Shown: positions 6,513-27,817 of the stretch, piece after piece
Layout: each line of letters begins with the position of its first letter
Position numbering within the stretch: the first letter of the stretch is position 1
IMG/VR virus record: IMGVR_UViG_3300025892_002985
Span: 1-31,768 of that record
DNA from: a virus
DNA: 31,768 nucleotides
Reading direction: 5' to 3' (one strand)
The notes under the pieces: generated by a model
The model's database searches: none
The model's input: the letters and a program-made list of their open reading frames with translations, nothing else
What the model was told of the DNA's origin: nothing
Position numbers and translations under genes: made by a program

Positions 6513-6520
6513 TATAAATA
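6513..6520 (+). promoter_or_regulatory. T4-type late promoter TATAAATA
   Basis: Exact TATAAATA followed by TTTGAA and the ATG at 6527. It sits in the 22-base gap between the gp25-like and gp6-like genes. Confidence 0.6.
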
Positions 6521-12828: not shown

Positions 12829-13260
12829 ATGGACGAACGAACACAAGAATTAAAACTAAGAGAACTTGAGTCTACTTTACAGACTGCTAATAAAAATAAG
12901 GGATCGATTGAGATTGAGAGATACGCTGGAGCGAATTTCGATGTTGATACTACTTTCCAAATTACAAAAATGCCGTTTGATACACTATTAGTTCACTTTG
13001 AAGATGGTGATGCTGATGGTAAACTGAAAGGTGGTATTTATGTACCAAATGGCGCTACAGACACTAAAGTTTGGAGGACTGGTAAAGTATTAATGGCAGG
13101 CGCTGGGTGTCAATTAGTCCAAGATGGTGACTATGTTACCTTCCCTAATGATAAGGGTATCAATGCTAAGGCTATCAATGTTAAAGGTATGGGTATTGTT
13201 AATCACTGTATCTTTATTGCTGAAGATAGGATCTTCGCAATTAGTGAACGAGTGGAATAA
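12829..13260 (+). CDS. GroES-like co-chaperonin (gp31-type function)
   Basis: A 143-residue protein. Residues about 46-143 follow the GroES pattern: ITKMPFDTLLVHFED (the usual PL-DRVLV strand), a Gly-rich mobile-loop region DADGKLKGGIYVPNGATD, TGKVLMAGAGCQL, then VQDGDYVTFPNDKG and a closing EDRIFAISE in place of the family's EDDILAIIE. The first 45 residues are an extra charged extension absent from bacterial GroES. T4 gp31 replaces GroES for folding of the major capsid protein by host GroEL; a similar role in virion protein folding is likely. It starts 2 bases after the previous stop, so it is probably coupled to the gp62-like candidate. Confidence 0.75.
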   Translation: MDERTQELKLRELESTLQTANKNKGSIEIERYAGANFDVDTTFQITKMPFDTLLVHFEDGDADGKLKGGIYVPNGATDTKVWRTGKVLMAGAGCQLVQDGDYVTFPNDKGINAKAINVKGMGIVNHCIFIAEDRIFAISERVE

Positions 13261-13280: not shown

Positions 13281-13288
13281 TATAAATA
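13281..13288 (+). promoter_or_regulatory. T4-type late promoter TATAAATA
   Basis: Exact TATAAATA followed by TTTAAA and the ATG at 13295. GCATTTTA (13271-13278) and TAAAATGC (13291-13298) flank it as an inverted repeat that includes the start codon. Confidence 0.6.
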
Positions 13289-14104: not shown

Positions 14105-15780
14105 TGAATTCACAATTATTTAAACACTTCCCACAAAATAGCGAACCTAGAGAAAATCAAGTAAAACTGTTAAATCAGATCATTGATGCATTAAATACTG
14201 ATAAAAAATTTATCGTAATTAATGCTCCAACTGGGACTGGTAAAAGTTTTCTAGCGGATACTTTAGCCAATTCAAGTGATGATGCTGAAAGTGCTTATGT
14301 TGATTTTGTAAATTCTTATAAAATTTGGAATCAATTAAATGGACCTGATGATGCTCGGGGTTTCTCGAATTCAGGTGCTGCTGTATTAACTGTAACTAAA
14401 AATCTTCAAGATCAATACACAAAAGATTTTACAGAATTGAATTTACTTAAGGGTAAATCTAATTATGCGTGTAATTATGATAATGAATATGATGTTGAAA
14501 ATGCTCCATGTAATACTTCTGGTGGTAGTGCTTTAAGAAAACAGTGTTGGGCATGTGATCGATGCGATTATTATAATGATAGAAATTCTAGTTTAGCTAA
14601 TAAGAAGGGTGTGTTTAATTATGACGTATGGTTGAATTTACCAAAATATGTTCGTAAGAAAGAAGTTCTAATTTGTGATGAATCAAGTGAGTTAGAAAAT
14701 ATTTTGATCTCTCATTTTTCTTTACAAATTGATTATCAAACTCTAGAGAAATTATTTGACATGAAAAAATACCCTAGAATACAATCTGAAACAGATAAAT
14801 CTGGGTATAATTGGCTTTCACAATTATCTGAAAACGTCAAATCAACCATCGAAGACGCTGAGGAAATCGCTTCAGGTAAGTCATCATCTGCTAAAATAGC
14901 TAAGAATAAATTAAAATCATTAAAAAGATTAGATAATTCTATAGATCGTGTTTTAGATAATTGGGGTATTAATGGGGAAAATGATAATTCAGTTGAATAT
15001 ATTATAGAAAAAATCGCTCCAAATAAATTTAATAAGAAAATTAAGGAGGGTATCACATTCACCCCATTTCGTGCTAATAAATTATCTAATCGATTATTTT
15101 CAACAGCTGATCGAGTTGTTTTACTTAGTGCAACTATTATTGATCATAAAAAAGAGATGATGGATCTAGGTATTAATCGAGACGAATATGTTTATATCGA
15201 GGCACCTAGTTCGTTTGATCCAAATAAATCACCAATTTATATTGTAGATAAATACCCCCTAACTTATAATTTGATTGATAGTAATTTACCTAAAGTTACT
15301 GAATTAACGAAACGTATTTTGGATAAACATCATAATCAAAAGGGTTTAATACATACAGTTAGTTTCAAGATTACAAAATCAGTTGAACAATATATTAAAG
15401 ATTCTCGATTAATATTTAGAGAAACTGGTAAGACTAATGATATGCTCCTTAAAGAGCACTCAGACAGCGATGAGCCCACCGTGATGGTTAGCCCATCGAT
15501 GAGTCACGGTGTTGATTTGAAAGGCGATTTGGGGCAATTTCAGGTCATTATGAAGGTACCCTACCTACCGCTTAGTAGTAAGCGTATTAAACGACTATCC
15601 AAAGAGGATTATCAATGGTATGTTAATAAAACTTTATCAACCATTGTTCAGATGGCTGGTCGGTGTACACGTAATGATACAGATTCTGCTAAAACATACA
15701 TTTTAGATGGATCTGTTGTTGATTTGTTAAAAAGAAATTGGAATAAACTTCCTAAATATTTTAGAGATAGGATTAAATGA
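14104..15780 (+). CDS. DinG/XPD-type superfamily 2 helicase with probable Fe-S cysteines
   Basis: A 558-residue protein. Walker A APTGTGKS is at 41-48, and a DEAH-type motif II appears as ICDESSELE (Asp192-Glu193). Between them lie five cysteines (123, 136, 148, 151, 154) in a SNYAC ... CWACDRCDYY arrangement like the Fe-S domain of the XPD/DinG helicases. LLSATI (340-345) is motif III-like, and QMAGRCTRN (516-524) is motif VI with its arginine finger, inside a helicase_C_2-type domain (VSPSMSHGVDLKGDLGQFQV before it). These enzymes unwind DNA 5' to 3' in repair or R-loop removal. A phage role in recombination or replication is inferred. It overlaps both neighbours slightly, so it is read as one operon with them. 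Confidence 0.8.
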   Translation: MNSQLFKHFPQNSEPRENQVKLLNQIIDALNTDKKFIVINAPTGTGKSFLADTLANSSDDAESAYVDFVNSYKIWNQLNGPDDARGFSNSGAAVLTVTKNLQDQYTKDFTELNLLKGKSNYACNYDNEYDVENAPCNTSGGSALRKQCWACDRCDYYNDRNSSLANKKGVFNYDVWLNLPKYVRKKEVLICDESSELENILISHFSLQIDYQTLEKLFDMKKYPRIQSETDKSGYNWLSQLSENVKSTIEDAEEIASGKSSSAKIAKNKLKSLKRLDNSIDRVLDNWGINGENDNSVEYIIEKIAPNKFNKKIKEGITFTPFRANKLSNRLFSTADRVVLLSATIIDHKKEMMDLGINRDEYVYIEAPSSFDPNKSPIYIVDKYPLTYNLIDSNLPKVTELTKRILDKHHNQKGLIHTVSFKITKSVEQYIKDSRLIFRETGKTNDMLLKEHSDSDEPTVMVSPSMSHGVDLKGDLGQFQVIMKVPYLPLSSKRIKRLSKEDYQWYVNKTLSTIVQMAGRCTRNDTDSAKTYILDGSVVDLLKRNWNKLPKYFRDRIK

Positions 15781-16370
15781 TGGATAAAAAAATATTAATA
15801 GTTGGAACAGCTGGTGATGTTATCGACAAACGAAGAGGTGAAAAAATAAATCAATATTTTGATGACATATTGATTTGTAATAAAAGTATTTTTCACATCG
15901 ATGAATATAGTAAATATTTTGGAACCCCTACTATATGGGGTACATGTGGTTGGTATAATAATGATGAGATTTTTGACCCAACTTGTGAAGAAAAAAGTAA
16001 AATATATGATATTATTATTAAAAATAATATATCCAGAGTTTGGTGCAATTCTCTTAAAAATATCAATGATTTAGATTTTGAAATACCTGATAATGTTCAA
16101 TATGATAATATAGTTTATCCATATAAACCTAACCAATATCATTCATTAGGTTTGCAGAGTATATTATACGCTATAAAACAAAAATATTCAGAAATATGTT
16201 ATTTAGGTATAGATTCATATAGAAAAAGCCATCATTATTATAAAGAACATATGCCATCAAATGTGATGACTGATGTTCATTCACAAAGTAATTATTTGTA
16301 TGAAAGTAAAATTATAAAAATTTTAAAAAAAGAAAATAAATTATTTCACATAGGTGAAAAAATTAAGTAA
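15777..16370 (+). CDS. Sialyltransferase-like glycosyltransferase (GT29/GT42-type fold)
   Basis: A 197-residue protein overlapping the helicase stop (ATGATGG gives two possible starts, 15777 or 15780). The N-terminus ILIVGTAGDVIDKRRGEKI then FDDILICNK resembles the CMP-sugar binding start of GT29/GT42 sialyltransferases (V-GN---L----G--ID--D-V-R-N). PNQYHSLGLQSILYAIKQK followed by EICYLGIDSY matches their later -P-TG---I-YAL----I-L-GFD-Y block. The C-terminus is His-rich around the expected catalytic area (SHHYYKEHMPSN). It is shorter than typical family members. The donor sugar is unknown. It heads a three-gene run with two radical SAM enzymes, pointing to glycan or small-molecule assembly. 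Confidence 0.5.
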   Translation: MMDKKILIVGTAGDVIDKRRGEKINQYFDDILICNKSIFHIDEYSKYFGTPTIWGTCGWYNNDEIFDPTCEEKSKIYDIIIKNNISRVWCNSLKNINDLDFEIPDNVQYDNIVYPYKPNQYHSLGLQSILYAIKQKYSEICYLGIDSYRKSHHYYKEHMPSNVMTDVHSQSNYLYESKIIKILKKENKLFHIGEKIK

Positions 16371-16412
16371 TAGAATAGAATTATGAAAAAATTAAGTAAT
16401 AGAATAGAATTA
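16355..16412 (+). repeat. Perfect 29-bp tandem duplication at a gene junction
   Basis: Bases 16355-16383 and 16384-16412 are identical (each begins TGAAAAAATTAAG and ends TAGAATTA). Copy 1 encodes the last residues and stop of the upstream gene; copy 2, in another frame, encodes the first residues of the downstream radical SAM protein, its ATG formed across the copy boundary. Confidence 0.9.
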
Positions 16413-17171
16413 GTTGAATTAAATGTAACTGAATTATGTAATAGAACCTGTTGGTTTTGTCCTAGACATGATTCAAATGTTTACCCAAATCAAAATAAAC
16501 ACATGTCTATTGAGACATTTGAATACGTATTAAAGGCGTTAAAACAATCGGAGTATACTGGTGATATAACTATTTCAGGGTTTTCAGAACCACTTTTGTG
16601 TAAAAATCTTTTTAAAGGGTTAGAAATTTTATCTAATCATTACCCTATAGAGATAATAACAAATTTTGATAAATTAACTGTTGAAATATTAGAGAGGTTA
16701 GATAGCTTTAATTTAAAGTTATTAAAAATAGATTTATACGATGGAATACATCAATTAAATAAATTAAATGATATGTTGAGTAAATCTAATTATAAAAATG
16801 AGATTTTAATTAAAAAGGTTTATGATCAAAGTGAAAGCGACTTAGAATTTTATAATAGGGGTGGAACTGCCCCGTTCGATAGTTCTTATGGTATAGATGT
16901 GAATAGACCGTGCCACATCCCATTTTATAAGGCTATGATAGATTGGCAGGGTAATTATATGTTGTGCCATTCAGATTGGCACAGAGAGTCTGATATTAGT
17001 GTAAAATATGACTACAATGTTAAAAACATGTCTTTAGAACAATACTTAAAGAGTGAAGGTTATGTTGAATTTGTTAAGAATATGGTAGTTTCTAAAAGAA
17101 AAGGGTTAACACCTTGTGAAAAATGTGATATAGGTGGTATATCGAAAGGTCATTTATGGAGCCACGTGTAA
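16383..17171 (+). CDS. Radical SAM enzyme with SPASM-type C-terminal domain (first of two)
   Basis: A 262-residue protein. The radical SAM CxxxCxxC motif is at Cys19, Cys23 and Cys26 (ELCNRTCWFCPRH), followed by a GFSEP motif in place of the usual GGEP (residues 66-70). The C-terminal part has Cys177, Cys195, Cys245 and Cys248 (NRPCHIPFY; YMLCHSDW; PCEKCD), fitting a SPASM or twitch domain that binds auxiliary Fe-S clusters. Such enzymes modify peptides, sugars or cofactors by radical chemistry using S-adenosylmethionine. No precursor-peptide gene is visible nearby, and the neighbours are glycosyltransferases, so a sugar or protein-linked glycan substrate is inferred. Its ATG comes from a 29-bp tandem duplication. 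Confidence 0.8.
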   Translation: MKKLSNRIELVELNVTELCNRTCWFCPRHDSNVYPNQNKHMSIETFEYVLKALKQSEYTGDITISGFSEPLLCKNLFKGLEILSNHYPIEIITNFDKLTVEILERLDSFNLKLLKIDLYDGIHQLNKLNDMLSKSNYKNEILIKKVYDQSESDLEFYNRGGTAPFDSSYGIDVNRPCHIPFYKAMIDWQGNYMLCHSDWHRESDISVKYDYNVKNMSLEQYLKSEGYVEFVKNMVVSKRKGLTPCEKCDIGGISKGHLWSHV

Positions 17172-18127
17172 TGGTAAAAAACTTATGGAATAGTGAAGTC
17201 AGGATAGAACCAACTAATTTATGCAACTATAGTTGTACGATGTGTCCTAGAGATAAACATACTAGATCTAAAGGGATTATGAGTATGAGTCTATATGAAT
17301 CAATTTTAGATCAGATTGTTGAGTTGGGTGCAAAAAAATTAGTATTAACTAACTTCGGTGAACCATTTATTGATCCTAATTTAGAATTAAAAATAAAATT
17401 AGCTAATCAATGTGGTTTAAACACATACATTATAACGAATGCTTCATTATTTGATAAACCGTCTAATTATAATCCCAATAAAACTAAAATACAATGTGCT
17501 ATAGAAAATGGGTTAAATGAATTACGTCTTAGCTTCTATGGGAATAACCCTAAAAAATATTCAAATATAATGAGGGGTGGTGATTTTTATAAAGTTATAG
17601 AAAATCTAAAACTATTGAAAAAACATAAAGGTGAATGTGAAATTTCTCATTATGTTTTACAGTTTAATGAAGAAGAAGAAGACTATTTAAAATTTCCAAA
17701 AGAGATAAGAGATGTTATTGATTATTATGAAATATGGAAACCACATAATTTTGGAGATGGTAGAGAGTATAGAGATATCCAAAAATCTTCGAAAAAATCG
17801 TGTAACAGACCTCAAGGTGGACCGTTGCAGATAAATTGGTCTGGTATAGTAGTACCATGTTGTTATGATTATAATGAAAATATAATATTAGGTGATGCTT
17901 CAAAGCAACCTATAATTGACATTTTAAATTCTAAAAAATATAACAAATTAAAAGAAGCTCATGAAAAAAATGATTATAGTGGGTTTAAATATTGTAACAA
18001 CTGTGATCAATTATTGTGTAATAAATCGAAAAATAGTATCGTATATAGTAGTAACCCTAAACACTCTGATTTGTCTAAATCGCAAATAATTAAAAGGACA
18101 AATACTGACCCAGATATAATTTTATAA
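17156..18127 (+). CDS. Radical SAM/SPASM enzyme (second of two)
   Basis: A 323-residue protein counted from the ATG at 17156. A second ATG at 17171 overlaps the upstream stop by one base (TAATG) and may be the true start. The CxxxCxxC motif is at Cys23, Cys27 and Cys30 (NLCNYSCTMCPRD), with NFGEP as motif 2 and YIITNASL after it, typical of the SPASM subfamily. The C-terminal region has Cys216, the pair Cys235-236 (VVPCCYDY), and Cys280, Cys283, Cys288 (KYCNNCDQLLC), a fuller auxiliary-cluster set than its neighbour. The two enzymes share the fold but differ greatly, so they probably do successive steps. Its stop lies 3 bases from the end of a convergent gene. Confidence 0.85.
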   Translation: MEPRVMVKNLWNSEVRIEPTNLCNYSCTMCPRDKHTRSKGIMSMSLYESILDQIVELGAKKLVLTNFGEPFIDPNLELKIKLANQCGLNTYIITNASLFDKPSNYNPNKTKIQCAIENGLNELRLSFYGNNPKKYSNIMRGGDFYKVIENLKLLKKHKGECEISHYVLQFNEEEEDYLKFPKEIRDVIDYYEIWKPHNFGDGREYRDIQKSSKKSCNRPQGGPLQINWSGIVVPCCYDYNENIILGDASKQPIIDILNSKKYNKLKEAHEKNDYSGFKYCNNCDQLLCNKSKNSIVYSSNPKHSDLSKSQIIKRTNTDPDIIL

Positions 18128-18130
18128 TAC

Positions 18131-18853
18131 TTAATATATATATTTTCTATATTCTTCTTTCTTCATTAATATATTATAAAAATTATTATCAATCTCGTGT
18201 TGATATAAATCAGCACGAGATTGATTTATATCAACACCATGTATACAGTCGATATCATCACGATTAGATAAGTTAACTCCTCTTAGTTGTATATTCACAT
18301 CTCTCCAAGATATGAAACACTCTGACACGCCTTTATATAATTTGTCATAGGTGTATTCTATTATACATCGTTCTTGTGGGCATTTTAAATATTCGTTTTT
18401 AATGTTTTCTATCATTTTTTTAGTATCAGCTGTTTTTCTAAAACATGATATACCAGCATCACTACAAAAATAAGGTATTCGTTTTTTTGTTAAATTATGA
18501 TTTTTAATCGTACTTGAATACTTTACTAATTTATCATTTAACATGAAAGCGTCTGGGTCCATGTATATGCATACCTCATTTTCAGTTAAAAGTTCATTGA
18601 TCATATTATACCAAACTCCAACTTGTGTTGACATTATATTTATAAATTTAGAGTTTTTGTGTAATATAGCGTCACTTTTAGATATTTTTATTTGATTTAT
18701 ATTTAATGGGATATTAACATCAGTATATATAAATATATCATCAATATTTATATATTGAGAGTTTTGTTTAAACCAAAATGGTAATAATTCATTTAGATAA
18801 AAATCATTGAGGGTTTTATCATCATTTTTAAAAAAAGAAGTAATTAATTTCAT
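18131..18853 (-). CDS. DxD glycosyltransferase-like protein (GT-A fold)
   Basis: A 240-residue protein. EVCIYMDPDAFML places a DxD motif at Asp99-Asp101 at the end of a hydrophobic strand, the usual metal and nucleotide-sugar binding site of GT-A glycosyltransferases. The opening (MKLITSFFKNDDKTLNDFYL) and a central GVWYNMINELL helix before the DxD also fit. Later HGVD around residue 214 could supply a second metal ligand. It is the last gene of the minus-strand fibre/glycosyltransferase run, and its start overlaps the aminotransferase stop (ATGA). Donor and acceptor are unknown. Two overlapping inverted repeats lie inside its 3' end. Confidence 0.6.
   Translation of the reverse strand: MKLITSFFKNDDKTLNDFYLNELLPFWFKQNSQYINIDDIFIYTDVNIPLNINQIKISKSDAILHKNSKFINIMSTQVGVWYNMINELLTENEVCIYMDPDAFMLNDKLVKYSSTIKNHNLTKKRIPYFCSDAGISCFRKTADTKKMIENIKNEYLKCPQERCIIEYTYDKLYKGVSECFISWRDVNIQLRGVNLSNRDDIDCIHGVDINQSRADLYQHEIDNNFYNILMKKEEYRKYIY
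18188..18237 (-). repeat. Two overlapping, mutually exclusive inverted repeats
   Basis: Repeat A: GTGTTGATATAAATCA (18197-18212) with TGATTTATATCAACAC (18222-18237), 16 bp perfect. Repeat B: ATCAATCTCGTG (18188-18199) with CACGAGATTGAT (18214-18225), 12 bp perfect. They share bases, so only one can form. On the minus-strand transcript A comes first, and B is followed by AATAATTTTT. Confidence 0.7.
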
Positions 18854-19767
18854 AAAACGGTTAAGTCGTGAAGTGTTATTCTATAACATTTTAAATCATT
18901 GAAAGTATATTCTTTAACTTTATAATTTTTATATTCACTTTTATCTTTTAGTAATATAAAATTGCCAGCTATAGTTAAGATATCATCTTGAAAGTATTTT
19001 TTAAATCGTTTGTATATTATAGATTTTAAATATTTGTCGAATTTATGTGTTATATTATTTTTTAAAATATATTCTAATATTTTTACTGTAGGTGAAGGTA
19101 AAAACATCGGTCTAATTTGATTTATATCATCTATAATAGATTCATTTGATGAATACACGAAACCAAACCTTTGACCAGTTATGCAACCCATTTTGCTAAA
19201 AGAACGTATTAAAATTAAATTAGGTATAGAAATTATAGGTGACATTGGGTTTAAATAAGCTTGATCTATAATTACATATTTAAATTTTTTACATAACTTT
19301 ATAATATAATCATCGTTTAATATTAATCCAGTTGGGTTATGTGGTGAAACTAGAAATATGATCTTTTCTTTAGTTTGTTTTATATGTTCTGTAGTAAATG
19401 AAAACTTATTATTTATAAAATTAACGTCTAATTTTTCGATATTACTATTATAATAGTTTAAATAAAAATCTATCATTTCGAATGTTGGGTTATTAATAAC
19501 CCAATTGTTGGATTCTTTTATTAACACCTCTATTAACGATTTTATAGCACACTCAGACCCATTGTGTATTGATATATTATTAATATTTATATTTAATTGA
19601 TGTGATAATAAATTTAATAATTCGAATGGTGATTTATAGTACATTAAATCAGTTGTTGATGTACTATAAAATGGTGTAATATATTTATTAATAAACACAG
19701 GAAATAGACACTCATTTCTACATAAAAAATGTGATTTACAATCATTGGATATACTGTGTCTTTTCAT
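18850..19767 (-). CDS. PLP-dependent aminotransferase, HisC-like (fold type I)
   Basis: A 305-residue protein, somewhat shorter than the usual 350 for this family. Class I/II landmarks are in order: SPHNPTG at 141-147, IIDQAY with Asp168 and Tyr171, the Schiff-base lysine in SFSKMGCITGQRFGF (Lys192), Arg200, and a C-terminal CYRITLHDL segment that supplies the usual substrate-carboxylate Arg. This resembles histidinol-phosphate or CobD-like aminotransferases. Lying between two glycosyltransferases with overlapping ends, it may make an amino sugar or amino-acid-derived substituent rather than histidine. Its first 26 bases overlap the upstream gene. The N-terminus is Cys-rich (Cys10, Cys16, Cys20), which is unusual. 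Confidence 0.8.
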   Translation of the reverse strand: MKRHSISNDCKSHFLCRNECLFPVFINKYITPFYSTSTTDLMYYKSPFELLNLLSHQLNININNISIHNGSECAIKSLIEVLIKESNNWVINNPTFEMIDFYLNYYNSNIEKLDVNFINNKFSFTTEHIKQTKEKIIFLVSPHNPTGLILNDDYIIKLCKKFKYVIIDQAYLNPMSPIISIPNLILIRSFSKMGCITGQRFGFVYSSNESIIDDINQIRPMFLPSPTVKILEYILKNNITHKFDKYLKSIIYKRFKKYFQDDILTIAGNFILLKDKSEYKNYKVKEYTFNDLKCYRITLHDLTVL

Positions 19768-20329
19768 TATAAATTTTTTTCATCAAATATGGGTTACCTA
19801 TTCCAGCTAAATGATATACAAATGGTTTATAACATTCTTGTCCCATATTGTGGATATAATTGATAGCATCTTCATGTTTTATATTTAAACATGATAAATC
19901 TAAATTATTAAAATATTTTTCTTCAGCTAAATAATTATAATTTTTATTAACATCTAATAAAATATCAATAATTCTATTAGTGTGACTTGTATTATACCAT
20001 ATAGAACAACCTAGTAACCAAGTATTCAGTTTAGATAAAATTAAATCAGAATTATGGTTATCGTATATTAATTTTTTTAAATTATAATTAGAATTATATA
20101 TAAAGCTATCGTGATCTGTTATATAAATAACATCATATTTTTTTATATATTTTTTTAAAATATATATTTTTATCCAACTCAATTTAAAATTTATATTTTC
20201 AAATTGGTTAACATCCTCATATATATAATCTATATTATTTTTTTTACAGTATTCTATTTTACTTTTTTCGAACCGTTTTAGTATTGTTCTAAAATATATA
20301 TCGGAATAAGATATAAGGCATATTTTCAT
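19742..20329 (-). CDS. Glycosyltransferase, GT34-like
   Basis: A 195-residue protein. The run KLSWIKIYILKKYIKKYDVI followed by YITDHDSFI has the layout of GT34 galactosyl/mannosyltransferases (W-K---I---L--YDWV-WLD-D): a helix with Trp and Lys, then a strand ending in a DxD motif, here Asp72-His73-Asp74. Next, LNTWLLGCSIWYNTSHT corresponds to the family's N-G-F--R/N segment. It has no membrane anchor, unlike yeast members. Its start overlaps the preceding unknown gene by 4 bases (ATGA), so it is translated with the fibre operon. The sugar is unknown. Confidence 0.65.
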   Translation of the reverse strand: MKICLISYSDIYFRTILKRFEKSKIEYCKKNNIDYIYEDVNQFENINFKLSWIKIYILKKYIKKYDVIYITDHDSFIYNSNYNLKKLIYDNHNSDLILSKLNTWLLGCSIWYNTSHTNRIIDILLDVNKNYNYLAEEKYFNNLDLSCLNIKHEDAINYIHNMGQECYKPFVYHLAGIGNPYLMKKIYNEKTQYIQ

Positions 20330-20898
20330 TTCATTATAGAAACTAAAAATGGTATATATTCATTTTGTTCTGAAAAAAGTGTAGGCCAGTTTTCTAAAAT
20401 TTGTTTAATATCATTACACTCATCTAAAAACTTATTATATTTATCGAAACAAATTTTAGTTATTTCTAATAAATTTGTTTTTTCTGTTTGAGTTATGTCT
20501 TCATCCTCATTAATATAATGAATTTGTTCATTATGTGATTGCTCAATTATTTGTTTAGTATTTTGTTTAAGTTCATCGATACTAATATTGAATATAGATG
20601 TTTCTTTTATAAAATTAAGTTGCCGTAATCCGCATATTTCCGCATATTTTATATGCGGTTCTAATGATTCATAAACAATTTTATAATCATGATTATTAAA
20701 TTGTTTACGACTTAATTCTATAAAATCAATATGTTTGTCATATTCTGATTTGTCATTTAAAACCTGTAATGTTTTATTTAATAATTTTATCTTGTTTTCA
20801 ACATCGTTTATTAAAATGTAAGCATATCCCGATTGTGATTCTAAAAAAATACCTCTTTCGGTTACCTTGTTATTTTCGTGTATAATAGCGTATCTCAT
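20326..20898 (-). CDS. Hypothetical protein after a fibre gene; possible fibre assembly factor
   Basis: A 190-residue, strongly helical and charged protein starting 3 bases after the fibre gene's stop and overlapping the next glycosyltransferase by 4 bases. The N-terminus MRYAIIHENNKVTERGIF looks like a short beta hairpin, as in some tail-fibre assembly proteins, followed by long helices (NKIKLLNKTLQVLNDKSEYD; DELKQNTKQIIEQSHNEQ). Fibre chaperones often sit directly after the fibre they serve, so such a role is plausible, but no family is recognised and it could instead belong with the glycosylation enzymes. The gene contains a palindrome, CCGCATAT-TTT-ATATGCGG, at 20640-20658. Confidence 0.5.
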   Translation of the reverse strand: MRYAIIHENNKVTERGIFLESQSGYAYILINDVENKIKLLNKTLQVLNDKSEYDKHIDFIELSRKQFNNHDYKIVYESLEPHIKYAEICGLRQLNFIKETSIFNISIDELKQNTKQIIEQSHNEQIHYINEDEDITQTEKTNLLEITKICFDKYNKFLDECNDIKQILENWPTLFSEQNEYIPFLVSIMK

Positions 20899-20901
20899 AT
20901 T

Positions 20902-22008
20902 TTATAGGGTATAAACATTATTGGAAGTAGTATTGAAACCAACAGAAACTGTAAGCGATTTAGACTTATATGTTGTTGCATTTAAATCAGTTATAACTAA
21001 GTTGTATGAACCTGATGATAAACCTGAGAACAATATCAGATTTGACGCTGTATTATTTGTTGTGTTTATATCTGCAAAACTATGTGTATCAGATCTGGTA
21101 ATTCTAATATTATAAGTACCGTCAGATGATTTGGTGAAACTATTACTCATATTATTTAATGAAAGTGTAATTTTTCCATCATTATTCCAATGATATACGT
21201 GCCATGTTTCGGCTATCGTTGTTATATTGCCAGCTATATCCCACAGTATATATGGTTCGTATGTATCACTAACTTTTTGAATTTCTATAAACCCACCAAA
21301 ATTAGATGTTTCAGTAAAACCTAAATTATGGTACACTGACGCATATGCTGTTGAGCTATTGTATTTTTTATTCTTTAAAACTATCTGAGTATCGTCATCG
21401 AAAGATACTAACGTTTTTAAAACCATATTAGTACTATCATTACCAGATGCAAAGTTATGTCCGTTTGTTGATGAAGCTGTGTGACCTTTTATATCAATTA
21501 GTACTTGATTAGTCGCGGCATTAAATAATGCTGTGAAAGCGCCTGATTCAGTAACTGGAAATATTGAAAATATTTCATATGTCCCCCTACCTAAAGTAAA
21601 TGCATTTGAACTATTATTAAAATTTTTTATAATACCGCCATAATCTTTATATAAAAATATATCTCTAGCTACCCAGTCATATCCAAATATTACATTACTA
21701 TTATATCTTGATGTAAAATATGCTTTTTTAGCTGCTGTTGATTGTTTTACCCCAGTTATATTATTTGTAATAATACCTGTATTTTCTGTAATTTCTGTTA
21801 ATGAGTTGTTTATTGTGGTTATATTATTAGTTAAATTACCACCATCTCCAGTTATGATATTATCACTACCTATTTTTAAGTTTATAGATTTTAATTTTAA
21901 TGTCGAAGAACCTCTCTGTAATAAAAATAAATCACCATCTTCTACAGAAGTTGCTTCTTGTAAAATATTTATAGTATTGATTTCGGTGTTTGTCGTTACT
22001 TGTGCCAT
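20902..22008 (-). CDS. Tail fibre-like protein
   Basis: A 368-residue protein. The N-terminus (TTNTEINTINILQEATSVED; then GDLFLLQRG) is shared with the next two proteins on this strand and probably docks them to the same virion site. Residues about 60-90 are Asn/Thr-rich with heptad-like spacing (NNITTINNSLTEITENTGII), fitting a trimeric coiled coil. The rest is beta-rich, with an AFTLGRGTYEIFSIF strand seen in phage fibre heads and a C-terminal Ig-like part ending LTVSVGF. It has no enzyme motif. It starts 6 bases after the previous stop and shares its transcript with the glycosyltransferases downstream. Confidence 0.65.
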   Translation of the reverse strand: MAQVTTNTEINTINILQEATSVEDGDLFLLQRGSSTLKLKSINLKIGSDNIITGDGGNLTNNITTINNSLTEITENTGIITNNITGVKQSTAAKKAYFTSRYNSNVIFGYDWVARDIFLYKDYGGIIKNFNNSSNAFTLGRGTYEIFSIFPVTESGAFTALFNAATNQVLIDIKGHTASSTNGHNFASGNDSTNMVLKTLVSFDDDTQIVLKNKKYNSSTAYASVYHNLGFTETSNFGGFIEIQKVSDTYEPYILWDIAGNITTIAETWHVYHWNNDGKITLSLNNMSNSFTKSSDGTYNIRITRSDTHSFADINTTNNTASNLILFSGLSSGSYNLVITDLNATTYKSKSLTVSVGFNTTSNNVYTL

Positions 22009-22014
22009 TTATAA

Positions 22015-22995
22015 TTAACCTATTTTTAAAAATTCTGCTCTAAAATAAACTTCTGGTAAAGAACCTAGTTGGTAAGGTCTACCTAAATCAGTATTCATAT
22101 TATGTTCATAAAGACCTTGTTCAAATGAGAAAGTTCGTTTATTTTCACTATCGCTTCCGTCTACATATAATATGCAATCAAAATATGTTACAGTTCTTCT
22201 ATCATCTGAAGTTGTCTGACATACATAACTAATATATTTAGTACCGTATTGAGTATCGGCGACATTATGTCTCTTTAATCTTATGAGCGACATGATATGG
22301 TCATCAGCCCAAGCCTTTGCTTTAATATAATATGTTCCTGGTTTTAATCTAAAATTTCTACCACTCCCATTAAAATTCTCTACGATTGTACCTTGGTTTA
22401 ATACCATGGTATTAATATTTCTTTGAACAAACTGTAGTTTGTGGTTGTTGGCACCTTGTGTATTAATCGTTTCCTCGTATGTTTTTGAATCATAAACAGT
22501 TGGAGTCAAATCTCTTTCCACAGTTGCGCCATCAGCATAAACACCATTTGGTCGTTGTTCTTCTAATATGGCTAGTTGGTTTATTGAAGATGTAATATCG
22601 GATAACGTATCTTCAATATATGATAAAATTGCACTACTTGTAACTAATTTCTTTTCTGATCCAGTTATTGATGTTTCAATACCAATTTCCTCTGGATTAT
22701 CTCCACCAGCTAAATTACCTATAACTGTATTTTCCGATAATTCGCCTAGTTTTTGTATACTGATCGAACCATCTACTATCTGAGATGTATTCAGTGGTGT
22801 ACTTTTAACACTTAACTTACCTCCGCTTACCTCTATTGTGCTATTATCAGGTAAACCGTTGATAAAATTAGAGTAGTTTGATTTATATGATTTAAGACCT
22901 CTTTGAACGAGTATCAAATCATCACCACCAATATTACCAATGTCGGATAATTGACTAATTAATTTTAGTTGAGTGTTTGTTGTGATTGTTGCCAT
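22015..22995 (-). CDS. Tail fibre-like protein with jelly-roll-like head
   Basis: A 326-residue protein. Residues 1-65 are the shared anchor (TTNTQLKLISQLSDIGNIGG; DDLILVQRG; LPDNSTIEVSGGKL). The segment KLVTSSAILSYIEDTLSDIT, with a following coiled-coil-like stretch, is of a type seen in many phage fibres just before the head. The C-terminal 150 residues are beta-rich, with NFRLKPGTYYIKAKAWADDH, LIRLKRHN and a closing VYFRAEFLKIG strand, resembling C1q/TNF-like jelly-roll heads of fibre tips. A receptor-binding role is likely. A late promoter lies seven bases before the ATG and would also serve the genes down to 18131. Confidence 0.65.
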   Translation of the reverse strand: MATITTNTQLKLISQLSDIGNIGGDDLILVQRGLKSYKSNYSNFINGLPDNSTIEVSGGKLSVKSTPLNTSQIVDGSISIQKLGELSENTVIGNLAGGDNPEEIGIETSITGSEKKLVTSSAILSYIEDTLSDITSSINQLAILEEQRPNGVYADGATVERDLTPTVYDSKTYEETINTQGANNHKLQFVQRNINTMVLNQGTIVENFNGSGRNFRLKPGTYYIKAKAWADDHIMSLIRLKRHNVADTQYGTKYISYVCQTTSDDRRTVTYFDCILYVDGSDSENKRTFSFEQGLYEHNMNTDLGRPYQLGSLPEVYFRAEFLKIG

Positions 22996-23002
22996 TTTTA
23001 AT

Positions 23003-23010
23003 TATTTATA
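23003..23010 (-). promoter_or_regulatory. T4-type late promoter TATAAATA
   Basis: Read on the minus strand, TATAAATA is followed by ATTAAAA and the ATG at 22995. It is the likely driver of two fibre genes, the unknown gene, both glycosyltransferases and the aminotransferase. Confidence 0.6.
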
Positions 23011-23086
23011 ACAAATTTATATTAATTGGGATTAACGCTTAGATCGACTTTGCCATTTGAAATATGTTCTATATCAATCGTGTTTA

Positions 23087-23094
23087 TATTTATA
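23087..23094 (-). promoter_or_regulatory. Second TATAAATA upstream of the fibre/glycosylation operon
   Basis: An exact minus-strand match just after the collar gene's stop, 92 bases from the next ATG. It could be a tandem late promoter with a longer leader, or chance in AT-rich DNA. Confidence 0.35.
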
Positions 23095-23096
23095 CC

Positions 23097-24299
23097 TTAC
23101 GTCAACTGAGACACGCCTACGATAGTCCATCCCTGTGTTTTCCCAGAGCTAGAAGAACCATTGGAATTCATTCTTAATTTAAACTCGGTCTGTCCAGCTG
23201 AAAACGGGATGAACACCATAGCGCTTGACCCTGCGTCTTCATACTCATATTGTGACTTTATTATTGTCCAGTTCGATCCACCACCAAGGTTTGTTTCAAT
23301 GTATCGTTCAGTTCTGCTTCCATTAGTTGACCGTGTATAACATACGACGTATACGCCCAACACCTTAGATGGATCAACCCCTACCCCAAATGTCGCAACG
23401 TCATAAGAATATTCATCACCCGATATTTGGTCATATTGTTCAATAGATGTAATATCTAAATATCGTGGAACTTGTGGTTGTGAATTAGAATCAACATATT
23501 CTTTAACAGCTCTACTACTAACTAATGATTGGTGATTATTATTTATATCATCAGAAAGATCTGTATCTACGACCCAATTACTTACTGGTGTAGAATTGAT
23601 TGGTTCATCTGGATTAATCTCTTGTTCACGTTTCCACATATATACTGTGGTATATGGTTGGATATTGTTGTGAGGTTGGTCACTACCTTCAGTAGATGTT
23701 TTACCTACATTAGCAGAACTTGTTGTACCGTGTAAAATATATTCAAAGTTTGGATTACCTGGTTGTTGAGATCCGCTTTCCTGGTAGTTATAATCGCGTT
23801 CTAGTTGATTATTTGCAGTCAATGTACCAGTACCATCTGAACCAGTTGATGCAACGTAGTGATTATGACTAGGTATCTCATCTTCAGTTAATTGATGTTC
23901 ATACTCACCACCTGAAGATCCAATTGGAAATGATTTAGATGTTTGTTTAACATCTGTTCCAACTCCTTCACCTATCAGAACTTTACCTTCACCTATTCTT
24001 GACCATATCCCAAATCCTAATATTTCTCTAGGGTTTCTATCATCAAATGCATTTATATATATTGACCCTACTGGATACGTTTGTTTAAGAATAGATCCTT
24101 CTACTTTTAATCTATTTGTAGTTGGGTCCACTTTAATCGTATCATTGTCAGGAATAGATGCTATTAAACTACTGTGAGATAATTTAAATGATTGGGTATT
24201 TGTTTGAGATAAATATAAATCAGAACCGCTAATAGAAGTCTTATTAGGGAGCTCTCTTACCAGGATTACATCCTCTACATTGTTAATTGAATCAGCCAT
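23097..24299 (-). CDS. Tail collar/short-tail-fibre-type protein
   Basis: A 400-residue protein. The N-terminal 70 residues are the anchor shared with the next two fibre genes (SGSDLYLSQTNTQSFKLSHS; IPDNDTIKV). Residues about 74-225 are a phage tail collar-like domain: YPVGSIYINAFDDRNPREIL, GIWSRIGEGKVLIGEG, GGEYEHQLTEDEIPSHNHY with the HxH pair His145 and His147, and PHNNIQPYTTVYMWKR. In T4 gp12 an HxH motif binds metal along the trimer axis, so the same is likely. SLVSSRAVKEYVD near residue 265 precedes a further beta-rich C-terminal domain, an extra head not present in simple collar proteins. It starts six bases after a late promoter. Confidence 0.75.
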   Translation of the reverse strand: MADSINNVEDVILVRELPNKTSISGSDLYLSQTNTQSFKLSHSSLIASIPDNDTIKVDPTTNRLKVEGSILKQTYPVGSIYINAFDDRNPREILGFGIWSRIGEGKVLIGEGVGTDVKQTSKSFPIGSSGGEYEHQLTEDEIPSHNHYVASTGSDGTGTLTANNQLERDYNYQESGSQQPGNPNFEYILHGTTSSANVGKTSTEGSDQPHNNIQPYTTVYMWKREQEINPDEPINSTPVSNWVVDTDLSDDINNNHQSLVSSRAVKEYVDSNSQPQVPRYLDITSIEQYDQISGDEYSYDVATFGVGVDPSKVLGVYVVCYTRSTNGSRTERYIETNLGGGSNWTIIKSQYEYEDAGSSAMVFIPFSAGQTEFKLRMNSNGSSSSGKTQGWTIVGVSQLT

Positions 24300-24305
24300 T
24301 TTAAT

Positions 24306-24313
24306 TATTTATA
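24306..24313 (-). promoter_or_regulatory. T4-type late promoter TATAAATA (divergent pair, minus member)
   Basis: Minus-strand TATAAATA followed by ATTAAA and the ATG at 24299. It faces away from the plus-strand copy at 24342; the two start codons are only 56 bases apart. Confidence 0.65.
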
Positions 24314-24341
24314 TATCATATTGAATATAACTGATTTTTAT

Positions 24342-24349
24342 TATAAATA
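24342..24349 (+). promoter_or_regulatory. T4-type late promoter TATAAATA (divergent pair, plus member)
   Basis: Exact TATAAATA followed by ATTGAA and the ATG at 24356. Confidence 0.65.
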
Positions 24350-24355
24350 ATTGAA

Positions 24356-27809: not shown

Positions 27810-27817
27810 TATAAATA
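27810..27817 (+). promoter_or_regulatory. T4-type late promoter TATAAATA
   Basis: Exact TATAAATA followed by TTTAAA and the ATG at 27824, in the 57-base gap between the two giant genes. Confidence 0.65.

Follow-up and report, generated by a model that had tools for sequence, protein, structure and literature searches.

A probable late-gene cassette of putative sugar enzymes linked to a fibre-tip domain in a T4-like virus, with tip modification as its most likely role

The DNA analysed here (the window) is a linear virus record of 31,768 bases from IMG/VR, derived from an uncultured phage. Matches to the baseplate proteins gp25 and gp6 mark it as T4-like; gp6 shows only 21-28% resemblance to known phages, and the nearest relatives of the helicase are found in very large phages, e.g. 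Bacillus phage G. A weak match to the GroES co-chaperonin (E 8e-6) lies at 12829-13260, two genes downstream of a PhoH-like gene. The locus under study consists of three fibre genes, a small protein here called unk190, and six enzyme genes in two converging blocks (Table 1).

Table 1. Genes and sequence features of the fibre-enzyme locus
Feature	Position	Strand	Basis
GT29 (sialyltransferase)-like glycosyltransferase, 197 aa	15777..16370	+	Pfam GT29 E 0.09; conserved in L007-L010
rSAM1, radical-SAM with auxiliary-cluster (twitch/SPASM) domain, BtrN-type	16383..17171	+	Pfam Radical_SAM + SPASM
rSAM2, radical-SAM/SPASM enzyme	17156..18127	+	Pfam E 1e-14 and 5e-13
DxD glycosyltransferase, predicted GT-A fold	18131..18853	-	AlphaFold pLDDT 78; Foldseek PDB glycogenin E 8.5e-6
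PLP-dependent aminotransferase, HisC/CobD-like	18850..19767	-	Pfam class I/II E 1.6e-16
GT34-like glycosyltransferase	19742..20329	-	Pfam GT34 E 3e-9
unk190 ('unknown protein'), small beta-barrel N-terminus and helical C-terminus	20326..20898	-	AlphaFold pLDDT 88.5
Fibre 3, tip-domain fibre protein	20902..22008	-	ORF, tip-domain HMM, N-terminal alignment
Fibre 3 C-terminal tip domain (aa 254-361)	20926..21249	-	Tip-domain HMM 3.7e-28; alignment
Fibre 2, N-terminal anchor in common	22015..22995	-	ORF list, N-terminal alignment
T4-type late promoter motif upstream of fibre 2	23003..23010	-	TATAAATA scan
Fibre/collar 1 with Gp10_C domain	23097..24299	-	Pfam Gp10_C E 8e-28
T4-type late promoter motif upstream of fibre 1	24306..24313	-	TATAAATA scan

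The initial annotation had described the minus-strand genes as one unit, and their order and spacing were confirmed in the open reading frames: 6 nt separate fibres 2 and 3, 3 nt separate fibre 3 and unk190, and overlaps of 4 nt (ATGA), 26 nt and 4 nt (ATGA) follow. The claimed common anchor of the fibres was recovered in N-terminal alignments of fibres 1 and 2 (84 aa, E 1.7e-6) and of fibres 2 and 3 (92 aa, E 1.2e-4). The extent of the unit had been drawn too short, missing the plus-strand half (15777-18127), in which the GT29-like gene, overlapping the helicase gene by 4 nt, and the two radical-SAM genes (16383-18127) converge on the minus-strand block. We include these three genes because the complete gene set recurs with this layout in the viral contigs L007-L010. 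These four contigs (L007 and L008 being near-identical) were found by their rSAM2 relatives (59-67% identity), which are surrounded by a common set of seven enzyme and companion genes; in each, the GT29-like, rSAM1 and rSAM2 genes on one strand converge on the genes for fibres, GT34, aminotransferase and DxD enzyme on the other. Scanning viral contigs with the aminotransferase or GT34 as a single query sequence gave no matches, and neither these two proteins nor fibre 3 or the unk190 of L010 had a relative in the phage collection; further cassette contigs came from profile searches. A separate group of viral contigs (L011-L022) carries an rSAM2 relative (42-45%) beside other conserved small genes, with neither aminotransferase nor tip.

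The T4-type late promoter placed ahead of fibre 2 was likewise found, its TATAAATA motif ending 7 nt before the gene, with a second copy nearby at 23087-23094. Fibre 1, set apart from fibre 2 by a 101-nt gap, has its own site ending 6 nt before the gene. No TATAAATA was present within 45 nt upstream of the start codons from fibre 3 through the DxD enzyme. Together, spacing and promoter motifs suggest that fibre 2 through the DxD gene are co-transcribed. The window holds 29 copies of the motif against 16.1 expected, and a scan for sigma-70 promoters found no excess over shuffles. The motif ends 6-7 nt before the start codon in 6 of 25 genes, compared with 7 of 1,192 ATGs overall; besides the two sites in Table 1, these are 6513-6520, 13281-13288, 24342-24349 and 27810-27817. 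Late-promoter motifs stand back-to-back at 24300-24355, between fibre 1 and a divergent gene of 1,136 aa. Shine-Dalgarno-like sequences are nearly absent from the window; possibly, late mRNAs are leaderless and the host does not rely on Shine-Dalgarno sequences. A 17-pair hairpin (18188-18225, -24.8 kcal/mol, z -9.3) within the 3' end of the DxD gene, shortly downstream of the rSAM2 stop, may terminate the plus-strand transcript. A conserved terminator between the convergent halves was rejected, the relatives having no hairpin of comparable strength.

Among the enzymes, rSAM1 matches a BtrN-type twitch radical-SAM enzyme and is a predicted dehydrogenase; BtrN itself acts on an aminocyclitol, oxidizing 2-deoxy-scyllo-inosamine to the amino-ketone (PMC9012708). 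The rSAM1 family profile aligns with BtrN at E 7e-38 over nearly its full length (profile positions 19-264 of 277), and the cysteines of the CxxxCxxC motif and the auxiliary cluster (C19, C23, C26, C177, C195, C245, C248) are invariant in 11 sequences, as is one arginine. In rSAM2, two partial stretches alone match BtrN. Function prediction from sequence is hard in this radical-SAM subfamily (PMC6231123). Peptide maturation by the radical-SAM enzymes was rejected, every NCBIfam match lying far under its cut-off. Homologues of rSAM2 (46-47%) also occur in Halobacteriovorax-group MAGs (L035, 1240-2277; L036, 10001-11014), in L036 inside a polysaccharide cluster; they could hint at a donor or host.

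The aminotransferase had been called HisC-like, which stands as a likeness: its nearest structures are HisC and CobD-like (PDB HisC E 2e-20), and its active-site residues are invariant across 10 relatives. As a true HisC it fails, scoring 105.5 bits against the curated equivalog cut-off of 276.55 (TIGR01141), and it was filed as a class I/II aminotransferase. Both glycosyltransferase calls of the initial annotation were upheld. GT34 scores above the Pfam gathering cut-off (37.4 against 23 bits). The DxD protein has no sequence-family match; its AlphaFold model adopts a GT-A fold (Foldseek probability 1.0), and its DPDAF motif, which contains the DxD, is invariant. The GT29 match is weak for the window protein (12.5 bits against a gathering score of 23; best family member E 9e-5). 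An annotation as sugar-active is supported by the GT34 match, the GT-A fold and the BtrN-type enzyme, and more weakly by GT29. No lipid-carrier, flippase or polymerase genes were recognised in the cassette.

Fibre 3 ends in a C-terminal tip domain of about 105 aa, which immediately precedes the cassette, clearly in 11 contig lineages and weakly in a twelfth (L027), there as a tip-like stretch at the fibre C-terminus; L046 is cut off. Four sequences picked by position (those of the window, L009, L010 and L030) served as seeds for the tip model, so that only held-out cases serve as a test. Before any iteration, this model placed six tip genes that had been held out (L049, L042, L044, L025, L007, L024) at the top of 1,209 ORFs with E-values of 3e-6 to 2e-3, the first false match coming at 4e-3; L024, L025 and L042 are related to one another. 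With iteration, the model matched one gene per cassette locus among all ORFs, directly upstream of the cassette, including that of L028, which was detected in this way only. For L032, a tip gene was predicted upstream of unk190 and was found directly before it once the upstream region had been fetched. The cassette is tied to one specific fibre-tip domain across divergent phages, raising the fibre option. Serine and threonine make up 30% of the fibre 3 tip domain.

Relatives of unk190 are present in the cassette loci, usually directly behind the tip, with varying enzymes after it. All of L007-L010 have it; L009 (279-1310 and 3597-4196) carries a second rSAM1-like gene, and its unk190 has moved inside the enzyme block instead of following the tip. 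The confident AlphaFold model of unk190 had no full-length structural match, and its identity as a known fibre chaperone was rejected on this ground.

Exchange of the cassette is best seen in L024 and L042, whose DNA outside the exchanged block is 89-95% identical on both sides. Windowed identity holds at about 90% up to the end of the tip gene, falls to 62-70% across unk190 and recovers to about 97% beyond the last enzyme gene, and one of the two has an aminotransferase that is absent from the other. Unk190 and the enzymes were thus exchanged and the tip retained, in these related contigs rather than in the window's own phage. Elsewhere, too, the tip and its partner protein are accompanied by other enzymes, and phages seem to swap the way in which the tip, or the cell surface that it contacts, is decorated. 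Enzyme sets differ even behind a tip that is 91% identical, so the coupling between tip sequence and enzymes is loose. L028 and L044 have their left flank in common at 97-99.6% and differ in tip and enzymes; L030 and L032 have downstream structural genes in common and different enzyme sets. The L032 cassette contains two amidinotransferase-family genes (the solved relatives of the profile include arginine:glycine and inosamine-phosphate amidinotransferases) together with DegT, PIG-L and GT8 genes. A KdsB-like CMP-sugar synthetase is found in the cassettes of L027 and L028 only; a complete ulosonic-acid pathway is not proposed for the window, as no DAHP-synthase-family gene was found in 13 contigs, all of them fragments. 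Cyanophage S-SCSM2R (L054, 8986-14837) has a GT8-like gene sharing 50% identity with its L030 counterpart, along with KdsA, KdsB, an amidinotransferase and 2OG oxygenases.

Comparable modules have already been described in Campylobacter phages and pelagimyophages. In CP220 and CPt10, as here, a radical-SAM block in the tail-gene region is swapped wholesale between close relatives; it was described in 2010 as an interchangeable module of related functions, and the authors gave it no specific role (PMC2853527). Block exchange of this kind, with conserved flanks, is seen in L024 and L042. CPt10 and WX1 carry, within a single cluster, an rSAM1 homologue (HMM 9e-33), a distant aminotransferase and an amidinotransferase akin to the one in L032, and CP220 has a different cluster with two nucleotide-sugar-transferase-like genes at the position of CPt10's. 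The window cassette works like this module, yet is not a member of it: the module has five radical-SAM genes and an amidinotransferase, whereas the window has two radical-SAM genes and no amidinotransferase, and searches for the tip domain and unk190 in Campylobacter phages gave noise-level matches only. The host recognition cluster of pelagimyophages and cyanomyophages is, like the present locus, a hypervariable island among the structural genes in which tail fibres occur together with glycosyltransferases and radical-SAM cassettes; it lies between VrlC and gp14 without a fixed gene set (PMC7029224), whereas a set arrangement of tip, unk190 and enzymes recurs here. A further difference is the cassette aminotransferase, for which the phage collection offers no relative. 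In mycobacteriophage Maravista, phage-borne glycosyltransferases have likewise been suggested to act on a virion protein, with the capsid proposed as target; the abstract describes neither a fibre-tip link nor radical-SAM or aminotransferase genes (PMC11256854). The butirosin pathway offers a parallel in chemistry, rSAM1 matching BtrN over its full length with the same cluster cysteines and adjoining an aminotransferase, as in an amino-ketone and transamination step. The aminotransferase class differs, being HisC/CobD-like in the window and DegT in butirosin biosynthesis.

The computations establish gene order, conservation, tip-cassette linkage, block exchange, folds and active-site conservation; co-transcription, the substrate, the acceptor, the role of unk190 and any effect on host range or shielding are inferences. 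The most likely reading, which we hold at about even chances, is that the module is late and exchangeable, and that its enzymes synthesise an amino-type sugar and place it on the fibre tip. The T4-type late promoter would drive fibre 2, fibre 3 with its tip, unk190, GT34, the aminotransferase and the DxD glycosyltransferase, and the GT29-like, rSAM1 and rSAM2 genes would be transcribed convergently from the opposite strand. rSAM1 would oxidize an alcohol group of a sugar or cyclitol, the resulting ketone would be converted to an amine by the aminotransferase, and rSAM2 may introduce a further radical change. The GT34, GT-A and GT29-like enzymes would build the glycan and attach it to the tip domain, with unk190 as a putative chaperone or adaptor presenting the tip to them; exchange of the enzyme block would yield a new decoration on an unchanged protein scaffold. 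Decoration of the tip is favoured by its linkage to the cassette and by where the late promoters sit. Also in its favour are the block exchange, the BtrN match beside an aminotransferase with intact active site, the GT-A fold, the Ser/Thr content of the fibre 3 tip and the lack of recognised lipid-carrier, flippase or polymerase genes. Against it stand the loose tip coupling, the Halobacteriovorax homologues in a polysaccharide cluster, the difficulty of predicting function in this radical-SAM subfamily and the tip of L007, which is not Ser/Thr-rich.

The pair of options offered by the initial annotation, fibre glycosylation or host-surface remodelling, was the right one; tip linkage raises the former, and the tip sequence does not dictate the chemistry. 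As the main rival, which we consider somewhat unlikely, the enzymes would late in infection modify a host glycan (O-chain or capsule) recognised by the tip, as a barrier to superinfection or to progeny re-adsorbing to debris, and tip linkage would reflect matching receptor specificity. Comparable islands of pelagimyophages, which combine radical-SAM cassettes with fibre and glycosyltransferase genes, have been interpreted as modifying the host O-chain (PMC7029224), the bacterial rSAM2 homologues in polysaccharide clusters are as expected for surface-glycan enzymes, and KdsB-like synthetases in L027 and L028, together with KdsA and KdsB beside related genes in S-SCSM2R, point the same way. The receptor-matching argument is weakened by the occurrence of one tip with differing enzyme sets, late-promoter placement is late for superinfection exclusion, and the cassette has no recognised lipid-carrier, flippase or polymerase gene. 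Host-surface remodelling stays in play because of the bacterial homologues and the loose tip coupling.

That a recombination hot spot behind the fibre genes merely gathers sugar and radical-SAM genes, with no functional tie to the tip, we judge improbable. Hypervariable regions at fibre genes are known in T4-like phages (PMC7029224), and the enzyme content is highly variable, but in divergent phages the tip domain is found repeatedly in the company of unk190 and enzyme genes, and unk190 changes along with the enzymes, not with the tip. Synthesis of a modified DNA base would draw on the same enzymes and is very improbable: radical-SAM, PLP and glycosyltransferase classes do occur in known phage base-modification pathways, but no thymidylate-synthase homologue was found in the 13 contigs searched, all of them fragments, the cassette lies beside fibre genes, and sister cassettes have amidinotransferase, PIG-L and CMP-sugar genes.

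Returning to tip modification, a bolder and rather unlikely version is that of exchangeable 'tip serotype' cassettes, which would place aminoglycoside-like amino or guanidino sugars on a conserved tip via a partner protein and so vary binding or shielding by the glycan, through radical-SAM oxidation and transamination, plus amidino transfer in sister cassettes. The analysis names one candidate acceptor domain, the tip, and one partner protein, unk190. If modification of the tip holds true, some tailed phages would diversify the part that contacts the host by chemistry, through enzyme swaps behind a fixed tip, and not only by mutation of the fibre or exchange of fibre proteins; the radical-SAM modules of Campylobacter phages would then also gain a function that can be tested, as would similar islands in abundant marine phages.
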